From positions 1 through 41,429 of IMG/VR virus record IMGVR_UViG_3300036859_000275: a stretch of 41,429 nt of DNA. One strand, written 5' to 3'. The notes under the pieces are model-generated. The model ran no database searches, had not been told where the DNA came from, and saw only the letters and a list, made by a program, of their open reading frames with translations. The translations under genes were made by a program, and so were the position numbers. Within the stretch, counting starts at the first letter, position 1. Every line of letters starts with the position of its first letter. This document shows positions 399 through 16,538 of this stretch, piece after piece. The DNA comes from a virus.

Positions 399-467
399 CC
401 TCCCGTGGCGGTGGACTACCCCGGGGATGCGCGCCGGGGGGTAGTCCACCTGGGCTGAGTGTGTCAT
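399..467 (-). CDS. tiny ORF (22 aa) linking replicase and HNH genes
   Basis: The ATG overlaps the replicase stop codon (ATGA). The ORF is 22 codons long, proline- and arginine-containing, and unlike any family I recognise. Its stop lies inside the Shine-Dalgarno of the HNH gene, so it may act mainly to couple translation from the replicase to the HNH. Only the 4-nt overlap habit of this genome supports it; it could be untranslated. Confidence 0.3.
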
Positions 468-3400: not shown

Positions 3401-5182
3401 GGGGTGCGCGTCGGGGGATGCGGTGAGCACCCGGTCGGCCAGCTGCACGTGGTAGTCACCGAGCACCGACATGACGGCGTCGAACAGGGTGGACTTGGCG
3501 TTCTTGCCGCCGCCCTGGCAGATCACCAGCAGGTCGTCGGGCGGGGTGTGCCCAGTGATGGCCTGACCGAGCCGGAGCTGGAACCATTCGCGGTCGTCCG
3601 GCGGCAGTGCCTCCAGGGCCTTGATCCAGTCCGGGTGCCGGGCGCCGGGCACGTAGTCCACAGGCGCCAGCTTGGTCACCAGCCGACGGGGATCGGGCGC
3701 CCACAGCTCGCCGGTGGGCAGGTGGATGACGCCCGACCGGCAGTTCAGGATGTCGGGGTCGCGGTCGAACGCGGCGCCATCGGTGCGGATGCCGGGGACA
3801 CCGCGGGCGCCCTGGACTACCGACCGGATCAGGCCGGCGGCCTTGGCCACCGACAGCCACGCCTTGACTTCGGTGTCGTCTACCTGGCCTTCGAGCGATG
3901 TACGGGCCAGGTGCGCGGCGGACTCCAAGTGGCCGAGCGCCCACAGCCGCGCGGCCTCTTCCACGTCGGTGTCCGGGATGCGCTCCCAGCGCACGCCGTC
4001 CCAGCGCAGCCACTTCAGGCCTGGCGCCCACCGGTACCGGCCGTAGAGGGCCTCGGCAGCGAATGTCTCGGCCAGGGCGGCGTAGGTGAACTTGCCGGTG
4101 CCGTTGCGCACCTGCGGGGCCTGCTCCAGCCATGGCCCCATGATCACCACGCCGTCGGCGGTGGCCATTACCGGCGGGGGTGGGGTGAAGCCGTTGGCCT
4201 GCATCCACCGGTCCTGGAGCCAGCTGGGGCAGCAGCCGGCGTTCTGGGGCAGTGTCTGGTTGGCCAGGGCGTTGCGTACGGCCCCGGAGACGGCGTCCAG
4301 GTACTCGGTGCCTCCGGCGTCGGGCTTGGACGTGCAGAACGCGCTATAGGTCTCCTCCAGTGCCCCCGCGGCGCCGTGGTGCCCCTGCTCGCCGAGCCTG
4401 ACCAGCTTCTGCACGACGCCGAGCATGTAGTCGTGGCGGCCGCCGGGATCCATGGCCAGCAGCGTGGACACGGCCTCCTCGGTGGCTCCCTGCACCACCG
4501 GGCACTGTTCAGGCCCGGGCAGGTCGGCCAGGAAGTCGTTCAGCTCAGCCGACCCGGGCGCCGATCCCGCTACCGCGCCGGGAGGTCTCAGCAGCTCGGC
4601 CAGGCCCGCTGGTACCTCGGGCAGCGTCCCCGAGCTCAGCCACTGATACCGGCCGCCGGGCTTGGTATGCACCGAAGGCTGGGCCACGATCACAGCGTTC
4701 AGGCCACGCACCTCACCCCAGCCGTCCAGCCCGGCCTCACGGAACCCCGCCACACTGTTGCCGTAGGCACCGGCCGGGGCAGCGAACAGGTAATGCCCGC
4801 GCCCTTGCTCGGCCACTCGCGTGGATTGGAACTGGGCCGGTGTGACCCCCAGGCCGTCATCGGGCATCAGCCACGCACCGAGGCCCTGGGTCAGTTTGGC
4901 TGGGTCATCCACGTCCAGGCACACAGCACCGGAACGACCGACGTGCAGCGCCAGGGACGCCTCGGGCCAGCGCTGCCACCAGGTCTGGATCACCGAGGGG
5001 TCCCGGGTGCTCTGCAACTGCCAGCCCTTACCCAGTCGGCTGCCGGGGTTCTTGGTTTCGGGATCCACCGGTACGACGAACCAGCCGGCGGCGGCGTATA
5101 GCGCGGCGGCCTCAGGTACCGACACACTCTCAGGTAGTTCGGGGATCCACGGCGCGTTGGGCTGCACAGCCTCGGCGCTCAC
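464..5182 (-). CDS. replicase fusion: prim-pol primase + SF3 helicase + family A DNA polymerase
   Basis: A single frame of about 1572 aa from the GTG at 5182. The N-terminal prim-pol (AEP) domain, about residues 20-200, shows VCLDVDD (metal-binding D90/D92) and a later QPSVH histidine (about 172). A D5/SF3 helicase follows, with Walker A GGGKNAKST (557-565), acidic Walker B IEE (about 609) and a sensor asparagine in STN (about 654). A proline/threonine-rich linker (about 850-950) leads to a 3'-5' exonuclease with DVET (about 1001), then polymerase A motif A GADFSSVEIRV (about 1360), motif B K..GRIYGG and motif C VHDEV (about 1523). This combines priming, unwinding and synthesis in one chain; in most phages these are separate genes. 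The frame is open upstream to 5383, but that part crosses a terminator hairpin and looks non-coding. GTG 5182 overlaps a 16-codon ORF that carries the good ribosome site. Confidence 0.92.
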   Translation of the reverse strand: MSAEAVQPNAPWIPELPESVSVPEAAALYAAAGWFVVPVDPETKNPGSRLGKGWQLQSTRDPSVIQTWWQRWPEASLALHVGRSGAVCLDVDDPAKLTQGLGAWLMPDDGLGVTPAQFQSTRVAEQGRGHYLFAAPAGAYGNSVAGFREAGLDGWGEVRGLNAVIVAQPSVHTKPGGRYQWLSSGTLPEVPAGLAELLRPPGAVAGSAPGSAELNDFLADLPGPEQCPVVQGATEEAVSTLLAMDPGGRHDYMLGVVQKLVRLGEQGHHGAAGALEETYSAFCTSKPDAGGTEYLDAVSGAVRNALANQTLPQNAGCCPSWLQDRWMQANGFTPPPPVMATADGVVIMGPWLEQAPQVRNGTGKFTYAALAETFAAEALYGRYRWAPGLKWLRWDGVRWERIPDTDVEEAARLWALGHLESAAHLARTSLEGQVDDTEVKAWLSVAKAAGLIRSVVQGARGVPGIRTDGAAFDRDPDILNCRSGVIHLPTGELWAPDPRRLVTKLAPVDYVPGARHPDWIKALEALPPDDREWFQLRLGQAITGHTPPDDLLVICQGGGKNAKSTLFDAVMSVLGDYHVQLADRVLTASPDAHPTELMDLRGARVATIEETPEARQLNVVRLKKTVGSSHITARYIAQDSVTYAATHTLFVSTNYRPIVAETDYGTWRRLALLRFPYTFLPAHKTRTQPEHRLADLGLRDRVKTDPAVHSAVLAWLLDGAWAWYASGKQMPAPTTEVEAQTDAWRYDSDTVHAYWAERLEPADGYAVLASDLLGDFNEWAARTKAQNNAWSDRTFKSRFGDHETTQLHGVHHRRYSHWAGEPLISRAASGYGMTSGAIPRDPVLWSGMRFQGSYPQPPTEPVDNPVTSGNTESAHDAHTTPAKMSSDLYVGTDRSSVRTVRETQDRTHVRPAPPVSPVSGSVTQGDNPQPPAQPVDKPKGEHAKPTKVQLANAEAKRLRVSAAAGPDVRLPAVVLRDGTVTEVTLGEAQTLLEGLPTLTVDVETSGHPIGHEAYELRLVQLGDDTFGVVLDPNDASQRDTIAHYLKTAPVLHAHSATADLVPLAYDDLADFNDAWQRMDDTVIRAKLHDPASTGADAGLKEISDHMLGPESASTPADEARKTLFKAAGWLEKPKPTTPPAKNGWHQVKPNCYTFTRYAGSDVLDTALVAKRLPPLPPHIYERERTAAHMVSRIALIGVPLDGTKVDQLHTEHTQARQEITETIQQRYGIDNPGSAQQVARTLTDAGVQLPRTKPSVSYPEGQPSVAEGVLEALKGQYDGIADALITDVLQYRHHATALGLFLEPYSQLVHKGDGRARPTVYTLGADTGRMSCVRPNFQQLPQSGGFRSIITTDPGMLQIGADFSSVEIRVAAEVSGDQVLMRMLDEGLDPHAMAADIVFGPDFTKAQRYMVKRGVFGRIYGGGLNTLAQQMGVPHYIAQQLIDAIDTLWPTLSAWSQEIKRAVQSGLMPTWTTHSGRLIHLPKDKAHAAPNYVIQGTARELLIDAMMLWRTTRWGASVMWPVHDEVDAHVPAAEAEDATATLVQCMETTLPRYGVRIIAEPSEPSPFWVDAA
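2373..2624. other. candidate replication origin: two inverted DnaA-box pairs
   Basis: Within the coding sequence of the replicase linker, TTGTCCACA (2373-2381) faces TGTGGATTG (2397-2405), and TTATCCACA (2592-2600) faces TGTGGATAA (2616-2624). Both pairs are separated by exactly 15 bp. TTATCCACA is the classic DnaA box and TTGTCCACA the form favoured in actinomycetes. Between the pairs lie further dyads (CGAACA/TGTTCG at 2454-2467, GCGCAC/GTGCGC at 2480-2492), a GTGCGC direct repeat (2549-2563) and a locally AT-richer stretch around 2511-2550. The phage lambda origin also lies inside a replication gene. Function is inferred from sequence only. Confidence 0.65.
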
Positions 5183-5229
5183 GACGCGGGAACCAATGGA
5201 ACCGGGGCGGGCACGAATTGCGGTACCAT
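5179..5229 (-). CDS. leader ORF (16 aa) coupled to the replicase
   Basis: The ATG at 5229 sits 7 nt behind GAGAGG, the only good ribosome site in front of the replicase. It encodes 16 hydrophobic, proline-rich residues (MVPQFVPAPVPLVPAS). Its TGA overlaps the replicase GTG start in a GTGA junction, so ribosomes finishing the leader can restart on the replicase. Either this is a real leader peptide controlling replicase output by translational coupling, or a base is missing and the leader is the true N-terminus. The perfect GTGA junction favours coupling. Confidence 0.5.
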   Translation of the reverse strand: MVPQFVPAPVPLVPAS

Positions 5230-5257
5230 ATGGCTGCCTCTCTAGCGATTGGTGCCC

Positions 5258-5288
5258 GGCCCCTCGGTGTCCTGGACACTTGGGGGCC
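5258..5288. promoter_or_regulatory. nested dyad upstream of the replicase
   Basis: An outer GGCCCC/GGGGCC stem encloses an inner GTGTC-CTG-GACAC stem, separated by 3x3 mismatched bases. It lies between the upstream terminator-like hairpin and the leader-ORF ribosome site. It could be an operator in DNA or a hairpin in the 5' leader of the replicase mRNA. No recognisable promoter hexamers were found around it. Confidence 0.35.
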
Positions 5289-5320
5289 GCGGCTGTTGTC
5301 GGGGCTTGCATCGTACTGCG

Positions 5321-5366
5321 CGATGGCCCGTCTCTACGGGAACCAGAGACGGGCCATCGTTTGTTG
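5321..5366 (+). terminator. intrinsic terminator-like hairpin, U-tract on plus strand
   Basis: A perfect 15-bp stem, CGATGGCCCGTCTCT with its complement, and a 9-nt loop. TTTGTTG follows on the plus strand (5360-5366). It lies between two leftward genes (stop at 5391, replicase start at 5182). The U-tract faces the opposite strand from all nearby genes, so it either stops antisense transcripts or works for leftward mRNA without a U-tract, as many actinobacterial terminators do. Confidence 0.65.
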
Positions 5367-5390
5367 CGCCGGGCAATCAGCACCCGGGTG

Positions 5391-6117: not shown

Positions 6118-6601
6118 GGCGTTTCGCCTTCCTGCTCAGGGGATCGGGGATGTTGCCTTCCTTGCAGGCGGTGTACAGGGCGTGCCGGGCGGCGTCGCGG
6201 GCATGCGTCATGCCCTTGGTTTCGTCCAGCAGGCCGGTCCGTCCCAGCCGGATGTCGGTGGCCCAGGCCTTGGCCACGGCGGCGGTCCGCAGACAGACCT
6301 GCCCGGTCGGTGCACCGTTCGAGAGGTGGGTGTTCGCCAGGGTGGCCGCCGAGCCGACCATGTCGCGGGTGCGGGCGCCCGGCGACCCCGACCGGTAGGA
6401 CTTGGTGCCGATGACGAATTTTTCCGCCTGGAAGTACAGCTCGGCCTTGGCGGGCACTCCCCGCAGCCACAGTTCCAGGATGTCGAAGGCACTGTTGCTG
6501 CTGCATTGCACCACGTGCACGTCCATCAGCTGGTCCAGGGCATAGGTCAGCTTCACCAGGCCAGGTGTGGGGCCGGGGTCCATGCCGATGGCAATGATCA
6601 T
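6110..6601 (-). CDS. RuvC-like Holliday junction resolvase
   Basis: The ATG at 6601 overlaps the upstream stop (ATGA), giving 163 aa. The N-terminus MIIAIGMDPGPTPGLV carries the first catalytic aspartate (D8) of the RNase H-like fold. QAEKFVIG supplies an acidic residue at E60, and HARDAARHA near the C-terminus gives H133 and D136. Actinophages often carry such enzymes, which cut branched DNA left by replication or recombination before packaging. Family assignment rests on this motif order; substrate is inferred. Confidence 0.75.
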   Translation of the reverse strand: MIIAIGMDPGPTPGLVKLTYALDQLMDVHVVQCSSNSAFDILELWLRGVPAKAELYFQAEKFVIGTKSYRSGSPGARTRDMVGSAATLANTHLSNGAPTGQVCLRTAAVAKAWATDIRLGRTGLLDETKGMTHARDAARHALYTACKEGNIPDPLSRKAKRHG

Positions 6602-6885
6602 CGGATCACCGTCACGGGATAATGCAGGTCTGCCAAACCGAGACGCCTGGTTGCCTGCCCGCATTCATCGCAGTACGGCGCCTGGTCATACGCGGTGTCG
6701 CTGGGGTCAAACAGGATCACACGTTCCGACTCGGCGTAGGGACCCGTCAGCGCAACCAGGAAAGGCTGCCCGAGTGCATCGATGCCGGCGGCCTTGTCGT
6801 CGGCCCCGGCGTCGTTCAGCTGGTCTAACAGCCCGCGTAGGGCATCGGCATCGGCGATCTCAAACAGTGCTCGCAGATGCGTCAC
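6598..6885 (-). CDS. hypothetical protein with CxxC motif (95 aa)
   Basis: The GTG at 6885 overlaps the preceding stop (GTGA). Acidic N-terminal helices (FEIADADALRGLLDQL) precede FLVALTGPYAESERVILFDPSD and a C-terminal YCDECGQATRRLGLADLHY, a probable half zinc ribbon. Function unknown. It lies in a run of four overlapping small genes, three with Cys pairs, between the regulated promoter at 7.4 kb and the resolvase. Confidence 0.7.
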   Translation of the reverse strand: MTHLRALFEIADADALRGLLDQLNDAGADDKAAGIDALGQPFLVALTGPYAESERVILFDPSDTAYDQAPYCDECGQATRRLGLADLHYPVTVIR

Positions 6886-7043
6886 GACCTGGTCTCCTCT
6901 TTGTACTCGGGCTGGCCGCTGCCGGGGCATCCCTTGCGATCCCCGAGGGCTTCACCCCGATGGCTGGCCACCAGGCCGTTACGGTTGATGCTGACGTGCA
7001 ACCGGCAAACCGGGCAGAACCCGACACGGCGCTTCACGGTCAT
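6882..7043 (-). CDS. small zinc-finger-like protein (53 aa)
   Basis: The ATG at 7043 overlaps the upstream stop (ATGA), and the gene ends in GTGA with the next one. The protein has CPVC at residues 10-13, an H-R pair near 29 and a CPGSGQ segment (C39), the C-x2-C...H...C-P-G-S-G pattern common in very small actinophage proteins. It probably binds one zinc. Role unknown; nucleic-acid binding is a guess from the family type. Confidence 0.7.
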   Translation of the reverse strand: MTVKRRVGFCPVCRLHVSINRNGLVASHRGEALGDRKGCPGSGQPEYKEETRS

Positions 7044-7258
7044 GCCACCGCCTCAGGGTTCAGTTCCGCGCAGTTCTTGCACAGATGGTGCTTGCCATCC
7101 TTGTGCGCCTTGAACCCCTCACGCTTGGCAGCGTCCAATGCCTTGCCTTGGCTGTCGAGCTCGCCGGTGGTGCCCCAGCAGTTGGCCGCCGGGGTCAGGC
7201 CCAGGCCCTTCAGGTCTGTGTCACAGACGACGGCAACAGCGACCCGTGAGCAGATCAT
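7040..7258 (-). CDS. hypothetical protein (72 aa), CxxC
   Basis: The ATG at 7258 overlaps the previous stop (ATGA) and starts MICSRVAVAVVCDTD. The middle is KALDAAKREGFKAHKDGKHH and the C-terminus has LCKNCAELNPEAVA, a single CxxC close to histidines. It could bind a metal together with C3 and C12. No family recognised. Confidence 0.65.
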   Translation of the reverse strand: MICSRVAVAVVCDTDLKGLGLTPAANCWGTTGELDSQGKALDAAKREGFKAHKDGKHHLCKNCAELNPEAVA

Positions 7259-7380
7259 CCCGCCACCTGCCAGACGTAATGGCCGCGCAGGGCGGCGTCG
7301 AAAGTGGCATACGTGCCCACCAGCGCACTGCCCTGCCACAGCTCATACAGGGCGGTGTGCGGGTTCTGGGTGATCCTCAT
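7255..7380 (-). CDS. hypothetical protein (41 aa), first gene after regulated promoter
   Basis: A 41-codon frame from the ATG at 7380, beginning MRITQNPHTALYELWQGSAL, with a GGGAAAGCAGG region as ribosome site. Its TGA overlaps the next ATG. It is the first gene downstream of the TTGCAC-N17-CATGAT promoter at 7418-7446. No known domain; a compact all-beta or mixed fold would fit its length. Confidence 0.6.
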   Translation of the reverse strand: MRITQNPHTALYELWQGSALVGTYATFDAALRGHYVWQVAG

Positions 7381-7417
7381 GGTGCCTGCTTTCCCGGGGC
7401 TCTAGCGATAGGGCTAC

Positions 7418-7446
7418 ATCATGCAGCAAGATGCAGCAGCGTGCAA
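7418..7446 (-). promoter_or_regulatory. promoter A with direct-repeat operator, leftward
   Basis: Reading leftward: TTGCAC (7446-7441), 17-nt spacer, CATGAT (7423-7418). On the plus strand the spacer region reads TGCAGCA-AGA-TGCAGCA-GCG-TGCAAC, heptads repeating every 10 bp. The same 29-bp arrangement occurs twice at 15.6 kb beside the Xre regulator gene. The promoter begins right at the end of the 119-aa gene and feeds the small-gene/resolvase/replicase series. The leader from here to the ATG at 7380 is about 30 nt. Confidence 0.7.
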
Positions 7447-7806
7447 CTACGCCTCGCCGAACACGTGCTTCCAGTACGCCGTCGGGTGCACCGTCCGCAG
7501 GCACCGACGGGACTCGGTCAGTATCTCAGTTTCGTTCCACGCCCAGTTCCGCAGCTCGGTGTACTCGCACTCCGGCAGGGTGGCCCGTAGTTTCCCGATC
7601 AGGCAGACGCACTCAGTTTCATCCGGTGTGACATAGCAGGCTTCCAGGTGCATCGCGTTGTCACACAGATCCGCGATGGCCTCGGCTAGCTGGTGTTGCT
7701 GTTCCGTGGTGGCGTACAGCGGATGGGCGCTGGCAGCCTTCATCGTTTCCACGCTCTCCAGGGCTGTGCCCTTCCAAAAATCGTCTGGCCCGTCGTTGTT
7801 TGTCAC
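7447..7806 (-). CDS. hypothetical protein (119 aa)
   Basis: The GTG at 7806 overlaps the SNF2 stop (GTGA), and GAGGGGAG lies 8 nt upstream. The protein is acidic and helical (TTEQQHQLAEAIADLCDNAMH) with scattered cysteines (ACYV, CVCLIG, LPECEY). No domain recognised. Its stop codon abuts the -35 of promoter A, so it is the last gene of the upstream transcription unit. Confidence 0.7.
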   Translation of the reverse strand: MTNNDGPDDFWKGTALESVETMKAASAHPLYATTEQQHQLAEAIADLCDNAMHLEACYVTPDETECVCLIGKLRATLPECEYTELRNWAWNETEILTESRRCLRTVHPTAYWKHVFGEA

Positions 7807-9584
7807 GCTGCGGTCTCCCCTCTAGCGACTCGTCTGCCGCCCATCAGCTCGGCCACGATGCGCGGATCGCGCACCAGCTCGGCCAGCTGCCCGGCGTGCC
7901 CGCGCAGGATGTCCCTGATGCGGGTGTCGATGGTGTTCTTGGTGATGATGTCGATGTACTCCACCGAATCAGCGGTCTGCCCGATCCGGTGCGCGCGGTC
8001 CTCGGCCTGCAATGACTCTGGCAACGACAGCGGGCGTTGAAGGAATACCACCGTGGATGCTGCGGTCAGGGTGATGCCGACGCCGCCGGCCCCAGTGGTG
8101 GCCAGCACAGTGTCGAGCTCACCGGCCTGGAAGGCGTCCACGACCGCGGTGCGTTGCGACCGGGATTGGCCACCGACGATATACCCGACCCGGCGCCCGG
8201 TCCGTTCCGCAGACTCCCCGGCCAGCATGATGAGCTGGCGGCTCGGCGCGAACACCAGCACCGATTGGTCAGGTCGTTCCTCCAGCACCTCCAGCAGCGC
8301 ATGCACCTTCCAGCTCGGATGCTTCAGGTCCAGATGCACCGACGTCTTTTTGGCCATCTGGCCGTATGTCGGGCTGTACTCGTTTTCGTCCAGCACCTCC
8401 CGGGTCTCGTAGCGGACATCGGCCGGCGCACACGCCAGGGATTTCAGGTGGGCCAGCACGCTGAACACGTCCATGACAGCGAGCTCGGTGGCATCGGGCA
8501 GCTGGGCCAGCATGTCGGCTTCGAATTGGTCATAGACCTTGCGCCAGATGTTCGGCATCTCGACTGTGCGGGTGCTGTATACCTTCGGTGGCAGGTCCAG
8601 CACGTCGGCCTTGGCCACCCGGCGGAGCTGGCCTTCTAGGCAGGCCCGGAACTCCGGTTCGGTATGCGGCGCCAGCCCGATGACCTTCTGGGTGTAGCCC
8701 GAGTCCACGGTGAGCAGGTAGCGCTGCTTGAACCGGTCCCCGGATGGCCAGGCACCGGCGTCCATGGCCTCCAGCATCGGTGTCAGGTCCCCGGTGTGGT
8801 GGGTGATCGGGGTCCCGGACATGCCGATCACGTACGGCGCGTCCCGGGCTACCCGGACTACCGCCTTGGAGCGTTCGGCGCCGGGGTTTTTGATGTAGTG
8901 GCACTCATCGATCACGACCGCCTTGGGGGCCAGCCGGTTCAGTGGTCCGCGGCGCCCGGTCGGCGCGTCCTGTCTCACGATGTCGTAGCTAGTGACGTAC
9001 ACGTCGAAGGCACCGAGTCTGCTCTGGCGCTTGGGCCCGTGATACCGGGTCACCGTCCAGTGCGGCGTCCAGGTGCGGACTGCTTCCACCCACGGGTCCA
9101 TCACCGAGGCCGGGCACACCACCAGGATCGGCTCGGGGTTGGCGCTGCCGTCCTGGAAGTAGTTCGCCCACAGTTCGGTCAAGCCGAGCAGGGCGGTGAT
9201 GGTCTTGCCGGTGCCAGGCTCATCGGTGAACAGGACCCGGCCGGTGGCCTTGACCAGCTGGGCACCGTCGTACTGATGGGCGTACGGCACCAGCCCATTC
9301 GGCGGCGTATAGACCGTTGCCGGGGGCATCATCCGTTTCAGCCCCTCGGTCTCCACCCAGGCGGTGAGCCCGGGGCTCGGGCGCCACCAGTCACCGAACT
9401 GATAGGCGCACTGCACCACCGCGGGCCACGACAGCGGGCATTCCAGATAGCCCTCCCCGGGACTGAAGTGTGGCGTGAGGCTCTGCACCATGGCCGCCAC
9501 CATGGCCATCTCGTGGGGTGGCCCGGAGGCCGACAGGCGCAAGGCCTGCCGGTCCCCGGACACGTCCCCGTGCACAGGCAGCAC
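7803..9584 (-). CDS. SNF2-family DEAD-like helicase/translocase
   Basis: 593 aa from a GTG 4 nt after the SSB-like gene. Motif I DEPGTGKT (121-128) follows the Q-motif-like PYAHQYDGAQL. Motif II is VIDECHYIKN, motif III GMSGTPI, and motif VI QAEDRAHRIGQ in the C-terminal RecA lobe. This is a superfamily 2 SNF2/Rad54-type double-stranded DNA translocase. Phage copies lie in replication/recombination modules and are thought to remodel protein-DNA complexes or forks; that role is inferred. Length is right for a minimal two-lobe SNF2 protein without accessory domains. Confidence 0.92.
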   Translation of the reverse strand: MLPVHGDVSGDRQALRLSASGPPHEMAMVAAMVQSLTPHFSPGEGYLECPLSWPAVVQCAYQFGDWWRPSPGLTAWVETEGLKRMMPPATVYTPPNGLVPYAHQYDGAQLVKATGRVLFTDEPGTGKTITALLGLTELWANYFQDGSANPEPILVVCPASVMDPWVEAVRTWTPHWTVTRYHGPKRQSRLGAFDVYVTSYDIVRQDAPTGRRGPLNRLAPKAVVIDECHYIKNPGAERSKAVVRVARDAPYVIGMSGTPITHHTGDLTPMLEAMDAGAWPSGDRFKQRYLLTVDSGYTQKVIGLAPHTEPEFRACLEGQLRRVAKADVLDLPPKVYSTRTVEMPNIWRKVYDQFEADMLAQLPDATELAVMDVFSVLAHLKSLACAPADVRYETREVLDENEYSPTYGQMAKKTSVHLDLKHPSWKVHALLEVLEERPDQSVLVFAPSRQLIMLAGESAERTGRRVGYIVGGQSRSQRTAVVDAFQAGELDTVLATTGAGGVGITLTAASTVVFLQRPLSLPESLQAEDRAHRIGQTADSVEYIDIITKNTIDTRIRDILRGHAGQLAELVRDPRIVAELMGGRRVARGETAA

Positions 9585-9587
9585 GGA

Positions 9588-10844
9588 TCAGCCTTGCGGC
9601 TGCTGGGATGCGCCCATCGGCCCAGCCTGGCCCTGACCACCGGACAACCGGTTCATCAGTGCCTGTTTCTCCGGGGACAGCCCTGACGGCTGGACCCCCG
9701 GCTGGGTCGGCGGCTGACCCTGGGGCGGCAGAGCGCCCGCAGGGGCAGTCATGGGCAGTTGGGGCTGGGTGTACTGCGGTTGGGGTGCGTATCCGCCGGG
9801 CGCTTGTCCCTGGCTGGGGTTCACCTGCGCGCCTTGCGGCTGCTGGGTCCCCTGATCCTGGGGGGCCTGCGGATACGCGTTGGGGGCGGCCTGGTACGGC
9901 TGCTGCACCTGGGCCTGATTGGGGTCGTATGCCTGCCCCCCGTACTGGGGCGCGGCCTGCTGTGCGGGAGGCTGACCGGCTTGGGTGGGCATGACCCCAC
10001 CGCCTACCGGGGCCTGTCCATACTGCGGGGCCTGGGCGTACTGCTGGGGGTTGGGGTAGGCCGGAGCAGGTGCCGGAGCGTACGCCGGTGCCTGCTGCTG
10101 GTACGGAGCCTGCTGGGGCGCCGCGGAGGCCTGAGGCGCCGGAGCCGGCTGGGCCAGCTGCTGCGCCACCGCGGCAAAAGCGGGGTCGGTCTCCCACGTG
10201 CCCTGGGGCCGGTAGGTGACCGCGTAGACGTTGGTCGCGATGTTGTTGCCGGGCTTGCGGTGCGTCAGCGTCACGATGACCAGCGCACCCTGCTTCGGTA
10301 CGCCGGATTCGCCCACCTCCTGCATCGCCCGGGTGACCTCATCACGCAAGCCTCCCCGCAGGAACATGCGTGCGTCTTGATCGGGAAAGTTCTGCTGCTG
10401 CAAGGCGTCCTGCCACACCAGCCGGAGCTGCACCGGCAGCACCAGCTTGGGGCGCCCGTCGCTGAACGTCTTCAGCTGCTTGCTTTTCGGATCGGAGTCC
10501 TGAAACACGTCACCGTCCGCAGGGGTGCGGGTGACCACACCGACGTAGGTGTAGCCGTTCGGTGCGTTGTTCCAGGTAAGGCCCTTCCCGGATCCCTGGC
10601 TGGGCTGCTGGTAGAAGTCGTCCAGCGTGCCCTTGGCGCCCTGGGGTACCGGCGGCATCGGCGGCTGGCCGTACGGCGGCGCCTGCTGGCCGTAGCCCGG
10701 AGGGGCGTAGCCGTTCGGCGCCGGCAGATACCCACCACCGTGGGGTGGCGTCGGTACATAGCCCGGCTGGGCGTACGGGTCTGGCTGGTACGGCGGTGCG
10801 GGGTAGCCACCTTGTAGCGGGTAGCCGTATTGGGGTTGAGTCAT
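9588..10844 (-). CDS. single-stranded DNA-binding-like protein with long Q/P/A-rich tail
   Basis: 418 aa from the ATG at 10844 with GAGAGG upstream. Residues 1-70 are a Pro/Gly/Tyr/Gln-rich arm (YPLQGGYPAPPYQPDPY). Residues about 71-215 form a compact beta-rich core (TLDDFY, NAPNGYTYVGVVTR, LVLPVQLRLVW, MFLRGGLRDEVTRAMQEVG, GALVIVTLTHRK) that resembles the OB-fold ssDNA-binding proteins common in actinophages. The rest is a disordered AQPAPAP/YQQQAP tail ending GPMGASQQPQG. It lies between helicase and nuclease genes. SSB identity is by pattern, not proven; unusual is low complexity on both sides of the core. Confidence 0.6.
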   Translation of the reverse strand: MTQPQYGYPLQGGYPAPPYQPDPYAQPGYVPTPPHGGGYLPAPNGYAPPGYGQQAPPYGQPPMPPVPQGAKGTLDDFYQQPSQGSGKGLTWNNAPNGYTYVGVVTRTPADGDVFQDSDPKSKQLKTFSDGRPKLVLPVQLRLVWQDALQQQNFPDQDARMFLRGGLRDEVTRAMQEVGESGVPKQGALVIVTLTHRKPGNNIATNVYAVTYRPQGTWETDPAFAAVAQQLAQPAPAPQASAAPQQAPYQQQAPAYAPAPAPAYPNPQQYAQAPQYGQAPVGGGVMPTQAGQPPAQQAAPQYGGQAYDPNQAQVQQPYQAAPNAYPQAPQDQGTQQPQGAQVNPSQGQAPGGYAPQPQYTQPQLPMTAPAGALPPQGQPPTQPGVQPSGLSPEKQALMNRLSGGQGQAGPMGASQQPQG

Positions 10845-10902
10845 GTGATGGCCTCTCTACTGTGTTCGGGTGCTACGGGTGTACAGCGGTCGGGGATTGG
10901 TA

Positions 10903-11169
10903 TTACTGGAACAGGACGAGCCCGCCGCCGACTAGCATCGCGAACAGGCTGATGACGCCGAAACCGAAGCCGATCAGGGCCAGGATCGTGTAGATCCAGA
11001 TGACGAACCGGACAGCGCCGGGGATCGACTTCCACGCCGTGGGCGCGGAGGGCAGGTACGTGAGTTGGTTAGCGCTCTGTGCCTGGCGCTCCTGCCATGC
11101 GGCCTGTGCGGCGGCGGCCTCGGCCTTGGTCGGCGGGTGACTCGGGCTGGGGAGATCAGTGTTGCTCAT
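10903..11169 (-). CDS. small membrane protein (88 aa)
   Basis: The ATG at 11169 has GAGAGG 8 nt upstream. The N-terminal half is hydrophilic (PTKAEAAAAQAAWQERQAQ). The C-terminal half, from about residue 50, is almost entirely hydrophobic (AVRFVIWIYTILALIGFGF, then FAMLVGGGLVLFQ), giving one or two membrane helices. No family recognised. A membrane protein inside the replication block could tether replication to the membrane; that is speculation. Confidence 0.65.
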   Translation of the reverse strand: MSNTDLPSPSHPPTKAEAAAAQAAWQERQAQSANQLTYLPSAPTAWKSIPGAVRFVIWIYTILALIGFGFGVISLFAMLVGGGLVLFQ

Positions 11170-11235
11170 GGGATGCCTCTCTGTGATGGGGGTATAGCGA
11201 TCGGGTTACAGGGGTTGGGGTCGGGCCCGGAGGCC

Positions 11236-12084
11236 CTACGGGGTGACGGCCACCGTGCTGGTGGCGTCAGGCCCAGGGCAGCCATAGAGGCCGTCCTGGG
11301 CAGCTTGGGGGCGATAGAACGGGCAGAAGTAGCACTCGCTGTCGCGGTCCTCGCCGGTGTCCGCTGGCACGTCGCGCAGGTGGGCCTGGGGGTTGCCGGT
11401 GCCGAGCAGGTAGTCGGCCCAGATCTTGCGCTGCGTAGTCTGCTCAAAGACGTTGGCTAGCAGCTGGCCGTCGGCACCGGGATAGTCGGTGACGTGCTCC
11501 CAGACGTACATGCCGTCCAGGGAGGCGCCGGTGCGGGGATAGGCCGCCAGCACCACCCGGGTCACCGGCAGACCGAGGTTGATATAGCCCAGCCCGTACA
11601 GCAGCAGCTGCACGACGTACTTGCGTGGCGGGTTCTTGCGCACCTTGTTCAGGCTGGAGTCACCGAGGAACTTGTGGTCAACCACGGCGAGCTCAGCGGC
11701 GTCGTACAGATCGGCGGTGCCGGGATGCCCGGGATGCGGGGTGACGCGCTGCTCGGCCAGCCAGCGGGTGTAGCCGTAGCGCAGGTTGTCGGCAGTGAAT
11801 GCGTCGGCGGCCCAGGCGTGGCAGGCGGTGCCCACGATTGACGGCCAGGGATCCACCACGTGGTTGGTGGCGGGCAGCGCGGCCAGCTTGCCGGCCACCT
11901 GCCGGTCACACATCACACCGAGCTCGGACGGCCCCAGGTGCTGCTGCAACGTCCGCGGGGACCGGGCAGCGGCATGCTCGAAGACGCCGCGCAGCGTCTT
12001 GGCGTATCGCTGGGCCCACGGACTGGAGCCGTTCAGCGACGGCGGCGCCGCGGCCATGAACGCTGCTGCTGACTGAGTGGTCAT
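11236..12084 (-). CDS. Cas4/RecB-type PD-(D/E)XK nuclease with Cys cluster
   Basis: 282 aa; the ATG at 12084 overlaps the upstream stop (ATGA). The nuclease core shows H89, GTADLYD (D125) and VVDHK (D136, K138), followed by a YVVQLLLYG helix. C59 near the N-terminus plus C251-x2-C254 and C269 at the C-terminus match the four-cysteine iron-sulphur arrangement of Cas4/AddB-type exonucleases, although the last spacing is long. In phages such enzymes process DNA ends for recombination. No cas1/cas2 or repeats are nearby, so a CRISPR role is not suggested. Confidence 0.85.
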   Translation of the reverse strand: MTTQSAAAFMAAAPPSLNGSSPWAQRYAKTLRGVFEHAAARSPRTLQQHLGPSELGVMCDRQVAGKLAALPATNHVVDPWPSIVGTACHAWAADAFTADNLRYGYTRWLAEQRVTPHPGHPGTADLYDAAELAVVDHKFLGDSSLNKVRKNPPRKYVVQLLLYGLGYINLGLPVTRVVLAAYPRTGASLDGMYVWEHVTDYPGADGQLLANVFEQTTQRKIWADYLLGTGNPQAHLRDVPADTGEDRDSECYFCPFYRPQAAQDGLYGCPGPDATSTVAVTP

Positions 12085-12323
12085 GCCTCAGGCCTATCAG
12101 TCGGCTCCGACAGTTTCCGCATGCCGGCACGCTTGCGCCACAGCACCCGCTTCACCAGGGCCTGTGTAACCAGCCGCTCCCAGAACAGCACCGCGGGCAC
12201 GGCGTCCACCTCACCGGCGCCGGGACCGGCCTTTTCAGCCTTGTGCCATTGCTCCCGGTACGCAGCCAGCCGTCGGCCCCAGACCGCGACGCGCCAGCGC
12301 GCGAACCGCTTCGGGTACCTCAT
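12081..12323 (-). CDS. basic hypothetical protein (80 aa)
   Basis: The ATG at 12323 overlaps the HNH stop (ATGA), and its own stop overlaps the nuclease start. Strongly basic and tryptophan-rich (RYPKRFARWRVAVWGRRLAA, WKRAGMRKL-type segments) with a central acidic patch. No domain recognised; the charge suggests nucleic-acid contact. Sandwiched between two nuclease genes with 4-nt overlaps on both sides. Confidence 0.65.
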   Translation of the reverse strand: MRYPKRFARWRVAVWGRRLAAYREQWHKAEKAGPGAGEVDAVPAVLFWERLVTQALVKRVLWRKRAGMRKLSEPTDRPEA

Positions 12324-12700
12324 CGCTTTCCCCTCTTGGCCAGCTTGCCGCCGGTCGAACTGTTGTCGTGCGCGCATGCCGGCCGGATGTTGTCGCGGCG
12401 GTACGTCCCGCCCTGGCAGCCGGGGATGATCCGGTCCACGGTGACGGTGTCGACTGTGAGCAGGGTGCCGCACCGATAGCACCGGCAGGCCGGTTCCCCT
12501 TCGCCCAGCGGAACGATACGGACCCGGTGACGTTTGATCGGCAGCAGCGCCACCACCACATCTACGTTCGCGCGGTAGGTCATCACCAGCCATTCACGGC
12601 GGCGGCGCCGGTCCTCGGCGCTACCCCGACGGTTGCCGTTGGTGGTCCCCCGTGCAACGGGCTTGGGCTCCAGCCGCTCAAGCTGATCCAGTATGCTCAC
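12320..12700 (-). CDS. HNH endonuclease (126 aa)
   Basis: The GTG at 12700 overlaps the preceding stop (GTGA). A basic helix (AEDRRRRREWLVMTYR) precedes C74-x2-C77, TVDRIIPG (D89), GGTYRRDNIRPAC (N104, C109) and HDNSSTGGKLAKRGKR. This is the G-G-x-Y...N-I-x-P-A-C variety of HNH in which the usual DH is DR. It may be a free-standing homing-type nuclease or part of recombination; there is no intron visible next to it. Confidence 0.8.
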   Translation of the reverse strand: MSILDQLERLEPKPVARGTTNGNRRGSAEDRRRRREWLVMTYRANVDVVVALLPIKRHRVRIVPLGEGEPACRCYRCGTLLTVDTVTVDRIIPGCQGGTYRRDNIRPACAHDNSSTGGKLAKRGKR

Positions 12701-12993
12701 GAGATCACCGGGCAGTTGCCGTTGTGGCCGCCGACGATTCCGCAGTATTTGCAAGGAGTGCCCGGAGTGCCCTTGCCCCCAGCAAGGGGCTTACCTGTCA
12801 CCAGTCCCAATAGCCGTCGTACATCCGGATCACCTCCTCTCCTGCGTGCCGCTCGGCGGAGCTCGGCCGAGCGGAGCTTGTTGGCCTCCCAGAAGACCCG
12901 CGGATCGGCATCCGCCACGGCACCGAGCTCCTGGAGCACGACAGCGCGCTCATGCCGGAGCGTTTCACGGGTGCGGCGGCGGAAGGTGATCAC
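12697..12993 (-). CDS. hypothetical protein with C-terminal zinc-knuckle-like motif (98 aa)
   Basis: The GTG at 12993 overlaps the upstream stop (GTGA); another GTG two codons earlier is possible. An Arg/Glu-rich helical body (RRTRETLRHERAVVLQELG) leads to a C-terminal CKYCGIVGGHNGNC, a C-x2-C-x5-H-x3-C arrangement close to retroviral zinc knuckles. This suggests single-stranded nucleic-acid binding, but no family assignment is possible. Confidence 0.65.
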   Translation of the reverse strand: MITFRRRTRETLRHERAVVLQELGAVADADPRVFWEANKLRSAELRRAARRRGGDPDVRRLLGLVTGKPLAGGKGTPGTPCKYCGIVGGHNGNCPVIS

Positions 12994-13856
12994 AGCCACC
13001 ACCCGGCGCCGTCCAGGTGAGCGCCTTCGGTATGAGGCGGCCGGAAACAAGTCCGTCCAATAGTGTCTCCGTGACCGGGCTTCTTGGCTAGGCATTCCGC
13101 TGGAGTCACGCCGGCCTGGAGTGAATCGCTCCAGGCCACCACGGTGCGATACTGGTCCGCGCCCTGGTGTTCGTGGCGCATATCCGGGTGGGGCTTCAGG
13201 CTGCACCACACGCTGTCCATCCACGGGTGTGGCCGACCGCACGGCTTCTGATATGCCGGATAGGGCGGAGACGGGGCGGCGGTAGGCGTCGCACTCTCGG
13301 CAGTTTGCTCCCCATCATCCGTTCCGGCGGGCGTGGACGGGGGAGCGGCTGTGGGCGCCGCGGCCCCGTCTCCGGTCTGGGTGAGGGCCTCACGCAACAT
13401 GCCAGCTGAGGCTCCGACAGCAGCCATCAGCAAACGTGTGTCAGGCGCCCGGGCATCTCGCCACTGCTCATCGGCCTTGGCCTCAACAGTGTTCAGCGCG
13501 TGCACCAGATCCGACCGGGTCACGCTGGCTGGGGCGTCCACCGGCTCCAGCTTGCTGTTGAGGATGCTGAACTCGGAGTCGGGAAACGCCACCCGCAGCT
13601 GGTCCTTGATCCTGCTAGCGTCCTCCGCCGTGATCGGTTCGGTTGCCCTAAGCAAATAGTGCTCGCCTGGCTCGATGATGCCGATATTCTGCATCGGGGT
13701 AGTGTCCGTGGGGATGTCTGCAAACCGCTCCAACGCCTGTTCGATGCGCTTGGCCACATCCAGCAGGGCCCGGCCCTCGGCCTCACCCACGCCCGAATGC
13801 GCCTGCTCTTTCAGGTTGAACGCCAGGGCATCGAACTCGTCCCATAATCTGCTCAT
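12990..13856 (-). CDS. hypothetical protein (288 aa), helical N-terminus and Cys/His C-terminus
   Basis: The ATG at 13856 overlaps the preceding stop (ATGA). The N-terminal part is helical and acidic (MSRLWDEFDALAFNLKEQ, LLDVAKRIEQALERF). A Pro/Ala/Thr-rich linker (TAAPPSTPAGTDD) follows. The C-terminal 90 residues hold two Cys/His patches, CGRPHPWMDSVWCSLKPH then RHEH, and TCFRPPHTEGAHLDG, the sort of paired small metal sites common in actinophage proteins. No function assigned. Confidence 0.65.
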   Translation of the reverse strand: MSRLWDEFDALAFNLKEQAHSGVGEAEGRALLDVAKRIEQALERFADIPTDTTPMQNIGIIEPGEHYLLRATEPITAEDASRIKDQLRVAFPDSEFSILNSKLEPVDAPASVTRSDLVHALNTVEAKADEQWRDARAPDTRLLMAAVGASAGMLREALTQTGDGAAAPTAAPPSTPAGTDDGEQTAESATPTAAPSPPYPAYQKPCGRPHPWMDSVWCSLKPHPDMRHEHQGADQYRTVVAWSDSLQAGVTPAECLAKKPGHGDTIGRTCFRPPHTEGAHLDGAGWWL

Positions 13857-14632
13857 GACTTCGCCCTGCTCTCCGCGAGAGTCCAGCGCTGCCCCCGCTT
13901 GGCGAACTCCACATACACCGCAGGCTGCTCGGCCTTCAGCCGCTTGCTGTCCACGGTCCACGGCTCGGTGTAGGTCAGTGTCATCGGCTTGAATCCGTCC
14001 ACGTACAACGCCGACCGCAGCGCGCCGTCGCTGGCCTCCGACAGCGCTGTCTGAAGCTTGGTCTTGACCGCGTCGAACTCCTCGGTGGCGGCGTCGCGGA
14101 CACGTTTCAGTTCGTCGTACCGGGCCCGCAGATCCGCCAGCTCGGTGGCCGGCTGGGCGCGCAGCACAGAAACCGGGTTGCAGGTCTCGCAGGACAGCCA
14201 ATCGCCTTCATGGGTTGCTGTGTCCGGACCGGTGCCGGTGGCGGGATCGAACGGAGCGTGGTGGTACAGCTTGCCGTTGTCCAGCACGAATTCCCCGCGG
14301 TCGTTGAACTTCTGCACAAAGACCGGTTCAGCTGGTGGACTGAACTGCTGTGTGCCGACAACGTCCGCGCCCAGCACAGAAATCACCAGGGCCATGTCCA
14401 CAGCGCTTTCGTTGGTGAGACCACTGGAGTTAGCGTCGGCCTCGGCCCGGGTCACGACCTGGCGATCTGCCGCCAGCCGCCAAGCCTCCCGCTCGGGACT
14501 GGACCAGCCGCCCTGAATCACAATGGCATGCCAGGTGGCTACATGGGCTTCAGCGTCCAGCACGCTCGGTGCCATGGTGCTGGGACCGCCGTATGCATGT
14601 GCCTTGGCGAGCAGTTCTCCGAGATCGAGCAT
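13853..14632 (-). CDS. hypothetical protein with coiled coil (259 aa)
   Basis: The ATG at 14632 shares one base with the upstream stop (TGATG). A globular N-terminal region with a CETC pair around residue 150 is followed by a long coiled coil (ELADLRARYDELKRVRDAA, EEFDAVKTKLQTALSEA). The C-terminal segment PMTLTYTEPWTVDSKRLKAE ends in KRGQRWTLAESRAKS. The layout of coiled coil plus short beta tail resembles phage Gp157-like or nuclease-inhibitor proteins, but the match is too weak to name it. Confidence 0.6.
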   Translation of the reverse strand: MLDLGELLAKAHAYGGPSTMAPSVLDAEAHVATWHAIVIQGGWSSPEREAWRLAADRQVVTRAEADANSSGLTNESAVDMALVISVLGADVVGTQQFSPPAEPVFVQKFNDRGEFVLDNGKLYHHAPFDPATGTGPDTATHEGDWLSCETCNPVSVLRAQPATELADLRARYDELKRVRDAATEEFDAVKTKLQTALSEASDGALRSALYVDGFKPMTLTYTEPWTVDSKRLKAEQPAVYVEFAKRGQRWTLAESRAKS

Positions 14633-14853
14633 CAGTTGAGCCTTCCGGTGGCGAGTCGTTGACGGGCGGCGCGGATGGCGCGCACGCGGGAGTGCCGTTG
14701 ATCGGTGGCGGCCCGGATCAGCGCACGGTCCAAGCGCTTGGTGCGGCGGCGCCAATTGTGGAGCATGTCGCAGGGCATGACCAGTTCAACCGGGACGTCG
14801 TACAGCCTGGAACCGCGCAACGCATAGTCCATGCGCTGCTGGGTATCGGTCAC
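14632..14853 (-). CDS. small basic protein (73 aa)
   Basis: The GTG at 14853 overlaps the previous stop (GTGA). Highly basic and helical (NWRRRTKRLDRALIRAATDQ, RAIRAARQRLATGRLN) after a MDYALRGSRLYDVPVELV N-terminus. No domain recognised; the charge suggests DNA or RNA binding. Confidence 0.6.
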   Translation of the reverse strand: MTDTQQRMDYALRGSRLYDVPVELVMPCDMLHNWRRRTKRLDRALIRAATDQRHSRVRAIRAARQRLATGRLN

Positions 14854-15239
14854 CACGGCGATTCACCGACTGCGAGCTTCAGCTGCCCGGTGTAATCCTG
14901 GCGCCAGTGGTACGGCTTCCCAGCGAACCGGACCGTACGGCGGTTGGCGTGCGCGGGCGGGCAGTGCAGCAGCGTGTCGGCCCAGTGCTCAGCATTCACC
15001 GGCAGCGACTCACCACACGCCGCGCAATACGGTCCGTTTGCACCGTCCTGGATCTGCCAGGCTTCATGCTGATGTATCGCCGGTACGGCGGGCGCCATTG
15101 CCAGGGGACGTGTCGGCGGCCTGAACCAGGTCCGGGCTGCCCGCATCTCGCCGATGGTGTGTGAAAGCGTGATGCGCTCCAACAGCGTCGGTCGGCGCCG
15201 ATAGAGTGCGGCGGTCCGCCGGGTACGCCGGTTCGCCAT
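14850..15239 (-). CDS. hypothetical protein (129 aa), CxxC and CPPAH
   Basis: The ATG at 15239 is preceded by GAGAAGAG. A basic N-terminus (MANRRTRRTAALYRRR) is followed by YCAACGESLPVNAEHWADTL and CPPAHANRR, probably one zinc site of two Cys plus Cys/His, and by an aromatic C-terminus (PYHWRQDYTGQLKLAVGESPW). Function unknown. It is the first gene of the leftward early series after the hairpin region downstream of the regulator. Confidence 0.65.
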   Translation of the reverse strand: MANRRTRRTAALYRRRPTLLERITLSHTIGEMRAARTWFRPPTRPLAMAPAVPAIHQHEAWQIQDGANGPYCAACGESLPVNAEHWADTLLHCPPAHANRRTVRFAGKPYHWRQDYTGQLKLAVGESPW

Positions 15240-15261
15240 GTCATACTCTTCTCTGTCGGGA

Positions 15262-15307
15262 CCCCTCGGCGTTCGGCCACTAACGTGGGAGCGCCGGGGG
15301 GTTTCTT
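15262..15307 (+). terminator. terminator-like hairpin with plus-strand U-tract
   Basis: CCCCTCGGCGTT (15262-15273) pairs with AGCGCCGGGGGG (15290-15301) over 12 bp including G-U pairs, followed by TTTCTT. The U-tract is on the plus strand, where no gene lies to the left. It resembles the plus-facing hairpin at 5.3 kb. The 118-nt gap 15240-15357 contains this hairpin and the next one, and no gene that I can see. Confidence 0.6.
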
Positions 15308-15313
15308 GGTGCC

Positions 15314-15352
15314 GGGCCGCCCCACGGCCTGGGGGTCCTCGTGGGGCAGCCC
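15314..15352 (-). terminator. hairpin just downstream of the Xre regulator
   Basis: CGTGGGGCAGCCC pairs with GGGCCGCCCCACG, 13 positions with one G-U (minus strand) mismatch, starting 5 nt after the regulator stop codon. No U-tract follows on the minus strand. Its position suggests it ends or attenuates the regulator mRNA, separating it from the leftward early operon. Confidence 0.5.
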
Positions 15353-15357
15353 GGTGT

Positions 15358-15567
15358 TCAGGGCAGATCGGTGGGCGCGATGCCCAGGGCTTCGGCGAGG
15401 GCGCGCCTCAGCTTGGGGCTAGGCGACACCTCCCCACGTTCGATCCTGGACAGGTTGCCGTCGGACACCGGCGTGCCGGCGGCCGTGACGACAGCTGCGA
15501 GCTGGCGCTGAGACCAGCCCTTGGCAATCCGGGCCGTCTTCATTGGCGAGTCGGTGTCGGTGTTCAT
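15358..15567 (-). CDS. Xre/Cro-C1-type helix-turn-helix regulator (69 aa)
   Basis: Starts at ATG 15567 (MNTDTDSPMKTARIAKG). The HTH is classic: TARIAKGWSQRQLAAVV for helices 1-2, then a recognition segment SDGNLSRIERGEVSPS, followed by LRRALAEALGIAP. At 69 aa it is a single DNA-binding domain without a separate dimerisation or cleavage domain. It is divergent from the plus-strand Mom operon; the 97 bp between them hold two matching promoter/operator units. A predicted -10 ends 6 nt before the ATG, so the mRNA is probably leaderless. It is likely the controlling repressor or Cro-like switch of the phage. Confidence 0.88.
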   Translation of the reverse strand: MNTDTDSPMKTARIAKGWSQRQLAAVVTAAGTPVSDGNLSRIERGEVSPSPKLRRALAEALGIAPTDLP

Positions 15568-15573
15568 GCCACG

Positions 15574-15602
15574 AACGTACAGCGAGATGCAGCAAGATGC
15601 AA
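15574..15602 (-). promoter_or_regulatory. promoter B with operator, regulator gene (leftward)
   Basis: Reading leftward: TTGCAT (15602-15597), 17-nt spacer, TACGTT (15579-15574), then 6 nt to the ATG at 15567. On the plus strand the spacer reads as TGCAGCA-AGA-TGCAACA heptads (about 15587-15603). Its position over the -35 and spacer predicts autorepression by the Xre protein. Confidence 0.7.
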
Positions 15603-15628
15603 CAAGCAAAATTAGTGTGAATCAGGAC

Positions 15629-15657
15629 TTGCATTCTGCTGCATCTTGCTGCATGTT
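15629..15657 (+). promoter_or_regulatory. promoter C with operator, cargo operon (rightward)
   Basis: TTGCAT (15629-15634), 17-nt spacer, CATGTT (15652-15657), then 7 nt to the ATG at 15665, again fitting a leaderless mRNA. The spacer contains TGCTGCA-TCT-TGCTGCA, the complement of the heptads in promoters A and B. It aligns without gaps to promoter B over 29 nt and shares a long identical core with promoter A. Confidence 0.72.
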
Positions 15658-15664
15658 GGTGGGT

Positions 15665-15871
15665 ATGGAGACCACAGAGAGCCAGCGCTTCGAAGCTCAG
15701 ACCGACGGCAACCGCGGATACGTCGTCTATGACCACGATCGGCAGCAGGTGGCGATCTCGACGGCCCAGACGCTGGCAGCCGCCGAGCGCATCGCGGACC
15801 GGATGAATCAGCGTGCGGCCAAGGCCGACGCGCCTATGTACGCCGGTTGGGATCGCTGGGATGCGCTCTGA
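15665..15871 (+). CDS. hypothetical protein (68 aa), first gene of cargo operon
   Basis: The ATG at 15665 lies 7 nt after the predicted -10. The sequence METTESQRFEAQTDGNRGYV then VVYDHDRQQVAIS and a helical AAAERIADRMNQRAA suggests a small alpha/beta protein, with no match that I recognise. It overlaps the Mom-like gene by 11 nt. It lacks the zinc finger of Mu Com, so it is not an obvious Com counterpart. Confidence 0.65.
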   Translation: METTESQRFEAQTDGNRGYVVYDHDRQQVAISTAQTLAAAERIADRMNQRAAKADAPMYAGWDRWDAL

Positions 15872-16538
15872 TCTTCGGTCAGCACGAACAGCGCTGACTA
15901 TTGCCCCGATCGCATCACAGACGGCGGCGCAACTGGTGGTCGAACACCATTATTTGCACCGCCGCCCACCTATCTCTTTCGCCTTCGGATTGCACCGTGG
16001 GCCGGAGCTGGTTGGTGCTGTGACCTTCGGGGTGCCCGCGTCCCGGCATATGCAGATGAGTGTGTGCCCTTCGGATCCGGGCTTGTGCCTGGAGCTGAAC
16101 CGGCTGTGGGTGGCGGACAGCGAACCCGCCAATACCGAATCGTGGTTCGTGTCGCGTAGCTTGCGGGCCTTGCCGCCGCGGCTGATCGCATCATATGCCG
16201 ATCCCCTGCACGGTCACGTGGGCTACATCTATCGGGCGCTGAACTTCTACTACGCCGGGTGGACTGATATGGAACGCAAGACGCCACGATTCGACTATGT
16301 ACCGGCCGATCCGGCAACACACACGCGAGACGCTTTCCGCAACGGGTTTGTAGAGCGGCGCCGACGGGTGGCCAAAGTCAAGTACTGGACAGCGACCGGC
16401 GACCGCAGGGACCGCAAACGCCTGGAAGGACTATGCGGCTGGCCCAAGATGAACTGGGCTGATGACCCACCGCCCACACCGCCAGGGTTCACAGCCAAAA
16501 TCATCACTACTGAGGGGGAGCAATGCACACAATCCTGA
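15861..16538 (+). CDS. Mom-like DNA adenine hypermodification protein (GNAT fold)
   Basis: 225 aa from the ATG at 15861. The Mom/GNAT pattern is visible: HHYLHRRPPISFAFGLH, then LVGAVTFGVPAS, CLELNRLWVADSEPANTES, SWFVSRSLRAL, and SYADPLHGHVGYIYRALNFY-Y-AGWT. In phage Mu, Mom converts adenine in DNA to a carbamoylmethyl derivative and blocks many host restriction enzymes; here that activity is inferred from the family. A basic C-terminal extension (RRRRVAKVKYW, RRDRKRLEGL) could contact DNA. It is the second gene behind the regulated rightward promoter, so modification would follow release of the Xre regulator. Confidence 0.8.
   Translation: MRSDLRSARTALTIAPIASQTAAQLVVEHHYLHRRPPISFAFGLHRGPELVGAVTFGVPASRHMQMSVCPSDPGLCLELNRLWVADSEPANTESWFVSRSLRALPPRLIASYADPLHGHVGYIYRALNFYYAGWTDMERKTPRFDYVPADPATHTRDAFRNGFVERRRRVAKVKYWTATGDRRDRKRLEGLCGWPKMNWADDPPPTPPGFTAKIITTEGEQCTQS

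Follow-up and report, generated by a model that had tools for sequence, protein, structure and literature searches.

Judged by its layout, the closest functional precedent for the locus described here is found in mycobacteriophage BPs, in which the operator OR sits between the -35 and -10 elements of PR, and in which the repressor binds five loci of the genome, with sites that recur at other promoters (PMC4557955). The BPs half site is a 12-bp palindrome (CGACATATGTCG), and two half sites at a distance of 5-8 bp form a full site (PMC4557955). BPs provides a measured precedent for an operator between promoter elements. A further mode is represented by the cluster A phages (L5/L1/TipsytheTRex), whose repressor recognizes asymmetric sites in monomeric form, possesses a second DNA-binding domain, and has many sites (PMC9283540, PMC1934351). 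Repeated short words are also recognized by omega (ParB) of pSM19035, a ribbon-helix-helix (RHH) protein that binds WATCACW heptads; these are non-palindromic, are contiguous in sets of 7-10 at each site, and also function as centromere (PMC9499535).

With these systems we compare here a locus of an uncultured phage that is represented by a single IMG/VR virus contig (record IMGVR_UViG_3300036859_000275, 41,429 bp). The whole contig was analyzed and is referred to as the window, and its relatives at the protein level are actinophages.

Three 29-bp units and their neighboring genes

Most of the coding sequence of the window runs leftward, with the packaging and structural genes (terminase, portal, protease, capsid, tail) clustered on the right and an early cluster at 464-15567, in which small genes accompany those of a Prim-Pol/D5/PolA fusion, of an SNF2-type helicase (7803-9584) and of an exonuclease-family protein (11236-12084). 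Between the two clusters, a Mom-like protein is encoded in a short rightward operon. Neither tRNA genes nor a tyrosine or serine recombinase (PF00589, PF00239) were found in the genome. Two further features may be mentioned in their own right. The ORF at 464-5383 (-) of up to 1639 aa carries the Prim-Pol, D5 helicase and family A DNA polymerase domains together, and the phage relatives listed have them as separate genes. The ORF 19541-20947 (-), which adjoins tail and lysis genes, contains a series of imperfect 60-nt repeats, at least eight in number, at 19751-20326.

Three units with one common 29-bp architecture are present in this genome, and their sequences, when read back, agree exactly with the initial description: TTGCAC-GCTGCTGCATCTTGCTG-CATGAT at 7446-7418 (-) (unit 1), TTGCAT-CTTGCTGCATCTCGCTG-TACGTT at 15602-15574 (-) (unit 2), and TTGCAT-TCTGCTGCATCTTGCTG-CATGTT at 15629-15657 (+) (unit 3). 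In the alignment of the full 29-mers (TTGCACGCTGCTGCATCTTGCTGCATGAT, TTGCATCTTGCTGCATCTCGCTGTACGTT, TTGCATTCTGCTGCATCTTGCTGCATGTT), the pairwise identities are 22/29, 24/29 and 26/29, the last value being that of units 1 and 3, and 22 of the 29 columns are invariant (1-5, 9-18, 20-23, 25, 27, 29). The units are real and exceed what chance would produce: with a weight matrix run over both strands of the 41.4-kb genome they obtain 44-48 bits, as compared to 10 bits for the next independent site and at most 22 bits for overlapping out-of-register copies of the units. When 60 genomes were simulated, chance matches to unit 3 had no more than 20/29 identical positions, whereas the real matches have 24 and 26, and when the window itself served as null, just three of 1500 random 29-mers had another match of 24 or more. 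A 10-bp self-periodicity equal to that of the units is seen in only 0.02-0.1% of the window 29-mers. On an approximate gene map, all three units are intergenic, while 5.4% of window 29-mers are wholly non-coding; behind units 2 and 3, a start codon on the same strand follows after 6-7 nt, and on the same approximate map the chance of a random 29-mer ending 5-9 nt ahead of a same-strand gene start is 0.003. Conservation drops sharply at the unit edges. Within the units, 14 of the 17 spacer columns are invariant or nearly so, which is about the level of the TTGCA box and above that of the -10-like hexamer. As the 17-bp spacer of ordinary promoters is not conserved, it is likely that something besides RNA polymerase reads the spacer, i.e. 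that it is a binding site.

The spacers are filled with TGCTGCA-type heptads at 10-bp steps, as had been noted initially, with the one exception of heptad 3 of unit 2, which is degenerate (CGCTGTA). A search of the whole genome for TGCWGCA-N3-TGCWGCA returned the exact double heptad at units 1 and 3 only. The initial annotation had set these direct repeats against the palindromic operators of Cro/CI-type proteins, and this contrast turned out to be false here: TGC-W-GCA is its own reverse complement except for the middle base, so that a head-to-tail array with a 10-bp period can equally be read as a series of pseudo-palindromes. In units 1 and 3, TGCTGCA-TCT-TGCTGCA forms a 17-bp pseudo-palindrome with six of eight symmetric pairs. 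Operators of the lambda type are likewise 17 bp long and are bound by a dimer of a phage HTH protein, and the word centers at 10-bp distance would be compatible with such a dimer. Alternatively, the units can be parsed as TGCA-N6-TGCA, a 14-bp element that occurs twice per unit with the middle word common to both. The best 17-mer of unit 2 (16/17) is at 15604-15588 and is shifted upstream by one turn relative to the register of units 1 and 3, in which unit 2 reaches 15/17. At the regulator's own promoter, unit 2, the best site thus covers the -35 element, while that of units 1 and 3 lies over the spacer and extends to the -10 element.

Units 2 and 3 are indeed placed divergently between the gene of a 69-aa Xre regulator (15358..15567, (-) strand) and the Mom-like operon, and the gap between them is AT-richer than the surroundings. 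From the end of the -10-like hexamer it is 6 nt to the ATG of the regulator in unit 2, and 7 nt to the ATG at 15665 in unit 3; this spacing is consistent with the proposal that two of the three mRNAs would be leaderless. The rightward operon begins with the gene of a 68-aa protein (15665..15871, +), for which no family match above cut-off was obtained, and the start of the Mom-like DNA modification gene (15861..16538, +; phrog_1384, 1e-38; PF25680, 3e-32) overlaps with its stop. On the other side, two tandem strong RNA hairpins (15240..15357, (-) strand; -62.9 kcal/mol, z -5.1) separate the regulator gene from the next leftward gene. They could possibly be a terminator, an attenuator or an antiterminator target, and may keep the regulator transcript apart from the rest.

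Unit 1 abuts the TAG stop of its upstream gene, and the next ATG follows at 7380 after a gap of 37 nt, so that the predicted transcript would have a leader of about 30 nt. The first gene behind it encodes a 41-aa protein (7255..7380, -), the stop of which overlaps with the start of the gene for a 72-aa protein (7040..7258, -), and the Prim-Pol/D5/DNA polymerase A fusion (464..5383, -) is at the far end of the series. Unit 1 therefore lies inside the leftward early cluster and not ahead of it as a whole, as the helicase, the exonuclease and others are encoded upstream. Of the earlier statement that this unit precedes a leftward resolvase/replicase series, the distal part is thus retained (the 41-aa and 72-aa proteins, several small genes, and the primase-polymerase), and the proximal genes are not. 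The term “resolvase” could not be confirmed, because the serine-resolvase profile PF00239 has no match in the genome and Pfam gave no match for the small protein encoded at 6110-6664.

The hexamers of the units are weak, and none of the three passes a sigma-70 consensus scan at a threshold of 9/12; the promoter reading is therefore based on position and family comparison rather than on a consensus score. On the level of sequence, the view that these are three promoter-embedded operators is supported by the rarity of the units, by their intergenic and start-proximal position, and by the layout in the relatives of the regulator.

The 69-aa regulator and its relatives

The 69-aa protein clearly belongs to the HTH_3 family (PF01381; 42.1 bits at a cut-off of 23, E 9e-11), with SDGNLSRIERGE as its helix, and it was the single match (40.6 bits) in a genome-wide search with this profile. 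A structure model from the single sequence shows four helices at moderate confidence (mean pLDDT 75.7), and the search of solved structures returned weak HTH matches only, namely 3kxa and, beyond the default cut-off, ClgR (3f51/3f52). In IMG/VR, relatives were found at 8 loci with the protein as query and at 26 viral loci with an alignment. The relatives at these 26 loci are Cro/CI proteins with the recognition-helix core G-N-L/I-S-R-I/L/V-E, most often GNLSRIERG, and CI/Cro proteins of this GNLSRIERG type are widespread. The 69-aa protein has the same helix core at 27-38% identity to 19 aligned relatives, and G37, N38, S40, R41 and E43 are invariant in the resulting alignment of 20 proteins.

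The regulators of the relatives adjoin divergent promoters, and TGCG-N5-CGCA is 12-fold enriched upstream of them, with 46 of 87 sites falling into 6.6 of 148.5 kb. Wherever two full sites are seen, the distance between them is 48 bp. At most of these loci, a half-site TTGCG[ACT] constitutes the -35 element and is followed by a 17-bp spacer and a fair -10 element. The named members SfII, Fels-1, ENT47670 and BZS1 have a Cro-annotated gene and, divergent from it, a CI-like repressor. Of six member genomes, five have an extra pair of sites, 15 bp apart, outside the switch region; together with the switch pair, this resembles OL plus OR. Fels-1, whose core differs in one residue (GNLSRMERG), has TGTR-type words instead of TGCG sites, and the idea that an identical recognition helix strictly predicts the operator word was therefore dropped. 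Given that the operators of the relatives overlap the -35 elements of divergent promoters with a 17-bp spacing, the small Xre protein is likely the factor that binds the units, in line with the role as regulator that had been predicted for it.

An orthologue of the 69-aa regulator with the same operator was not found in the IMG/VR, GTDB, genome and related-locus searches. The scan of GTDB genomes for the regulator gave no match, 34 loci that are related by their replication genes have neither the regulator nor the operator, and the relatives identified by the capsid, of which those at 69-75% come from the metagenome sites 3300037193 and 3300037510, are mostly fragments that end short of the regulator region. 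The operator patterns TTGCANNNTGCTGCANNNYGCTGYA and TTGCANNNTGCTGCANNNTGCTG occur in 5 and 8 stretches of IMG/VR, none of which proved related to the window phage in the tests that were run. Operator matches in the genome collection were few, near the approximately two that we estimate to be expected by chance, and were not counted as evidence; one is promoter-like in Anaerofilum, two are within a nitroreductase gene of Paenibacillus, and one MAG has an TTGCACTCT array. A lake-sediment MAG carries at 4679 (-) a five-fold 10-bp TTGCACTCTx array near the gene of a 139-aa protein. When the 111-bp intergenic region was compared with phages and plasmids by BLASTN, chance-level matches only were obtained, including one to a Streptomyces plasmid that was inspected and discarded. 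A separate observation concerns the 57-kb phage IMGVR_UViG_3300048838_000199, which has five promoters of one family (e.g. 373-345 (-) and 6446-6418 (-)); TTTTGGTATTGCATCRTGCWGCAY is common to four of the five, and an ATG mostly follows within about 10 nt. No HTH_3 protein or relative of the regulator was detected in this phage, and the tests that were run indicated no kinship with the window phage.

A possible autoregulatory circuit and its alternatives

We consider it reasonably probable that the units are promoters whose -35/-10 spacer serves as operator for the 69-aa Cro-like Xre protein that the phage itself encodes, and that this protein limits its own synthesis and shuts the Mom operon as well as an internal promoter of the distal replication genes. 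Early after infection, the host polymerase would fire from unit 2 to produce the regulator, from unit 3 to produce the 68-aa protein and Mom, and from unit 1, which would act as internal promoter for the 41-aa gene, the 72-aa gene and, farthest downstream, the primase-polymerase. The recognition helices of the 69-aa protein would dock on the TGC/GCA words, whose 10-bp recurrence would present them on one face of the helix, and two neighboring words would make up one pseudo-palindromic dimer site. We infer that binding would be cooperative along this face. Occupancy would cover the -35 element in unit 2, or the spacer and the -10 element in units 1 and 3, and would thereby exclude the host RNA polymerase. 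As the protein accumulates, it would occupy the TGC words and close all three promoters, as Cro proteins do early. A more far-reaching model, which we offer as tentative and rather unlikely, is that this HTH-only regulator coats the spacer by means of at least three palindromic words at one-turn phase, with each internal word being able to act as a half-site of two overlapping dimers, and that the one-turn shift between unit 2 and units 1 and 3 selects coverage of the -35 or the -10 element, resulting in a graded control of the regulator itself, of Mom modification and of replication.

The Xre circuit is favored by the back-to-back position of units 2 and 3 between the regulator and the facing genes, by the far-above-chance occurrence, start-proximal location and conserved spacers of the units, and by the fact that the one HTH_3 protein of the genome is a clear member of its family. 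Against it count the lack of an orthologue with the same operator in our searches, an operator geometry that differs from that of the relatives, the mismatch of the words in Fels-1, and the weak hexamers.

Which other readings could account for the units? The promoters could be used by the host RNA polymerase while the phased words are bound not by the Xre protein but by another factor, such as a host regulator, a ribbon-helix-helix protein or an activator. We regard this as unlikely, given that unit 2 is directly at the start of the Xre gene and that regulators of this family are generally found beside TGC-word operators that overlap -35 boxes. Yet the idea is kept alive by IMGVR_UViG_3300048838_000199, in which five look-alike promoters (TTGCATCRTGCWGCAY..TGTGGTATAAY) exist without a detected HTH_3 protein. 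It also gains from omega, an RHH protein whose 7-bp heptads overlap promoters (PMC9499535), although those heptads are contiguous, non-palindromic and 7-10 per site, whereas the words of the units are palindromic, number two to three, and are separated by 3-bp gaps.

It is more doubtful still that the units simply go back to the duplication of a single constitutive early promoter, with an incidental internal repeat that has no reader. The close similarity of units 1 and 3 is what one would expect of recent copies, but such copies would account neither for the sharp edges of conservation, nor for the rare internal 10-bp repeat, nor for a spacer that is as conserved as the -35 element and more than the -10 element. 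Iterons typically are short direct repeats near replication genes, and such a location together with the AT-richer gap between units 2 and 3 could suggest replication iterons, a partition centromere or recombination sites in place of transcription control. This appears very improbable to us: a ParA or RepA-like neighbor was not identified, the genome search returned no tyrosine or serine recombinase, a single copy of the unit lies 8 kb away, and the orientation and distance of the units track gene starts.

If the Xre circuit is true, one tiny Cro-like protein would tie a DNA-modification gene, Mom, to replication genes, and the palindromic words at one-turn distance would be a compact model for an HTH-only protein that reads a promoter spacer. 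The circuit would provide a testable regulatory wiring for an actinophage for which no isolated close relative was found. The comparison of the Xre family moreover hints at a design rule, in which the operator half-site is the -35 element and the spacer is fixed at 17 bp, and in which word and phasing diverge.

Comparison with known systems

How does this locus relate to the systems described above? Omega shares with the window the repeated 7-bp words that overlap several promoters, and in omega these are read by one small protein; in the window, however, the neighboring regulator is an HTH_3 protein, and the words are TGCWGCA with 3-bp gaps. The cluster A repressor likewise belongs to actinophages and has sites both at promoters and scattered over the genome, but there are many sites per genome, whereas the window has three sites and a single HTH domain; the cluster A mode, monomeric and with a second domain, does not fit a 69-aa single-domain protein.

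SfII, Fels-1, Cronobacter ENT47670 and Serratia BZS1 resemble the window in having HTH_3 regulators with a GNLSRIERG-type helix at divergent promoters, and in the SfII/ENT47670 group a half-site (TTGCGN) usually doubles as the -35 element in front of a 17-bp spacer, a layout (TTGCxN) that is also seen in the window. The operators themselves differ, being the 13-bp TGCG-N5-CGCA in the SfII/ENT47670 group and TGCA-N6-TGCA or TGCTGCA-N3-TGCTGCA in the window, and a TGC-N7-GCA pair is absent from all three units. Sites away from the switch are present in both, as a second operator pair in the group and as one remote site in the window. The group has two regulators, CI and Cro, whereas the window has one regulator and a divergent gene for the 68-aa protein without family. 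The hosts of the group are proteobacteria, and its -10 boxes are stronger than those of the window.

BPs comes closest. Its gp33, like the window protein, is a small HTH repressor at divergent promoters (Prep and PR in BPs) with further dispersed sites, and units 1 and 3 resemble the BPs arrangement in having paired short palindromes inside the -35/-10 spacer. The half sites are 12 bp with 5-8 bp gaps in BPs and 7 bp (TGCWGCA) with 3-bp gaps in the window, and BPs has integration-dependent immunity with an integrase and attP in the repressor gene, whereas an integrase (PF00589, PF00239) was not found in the window. Taken together, sequence and analogy point to an operator-in-spacer, Cro-type autoregulatory circuit in an uncultured actinophage, the design of which would be a variation on a known theme.
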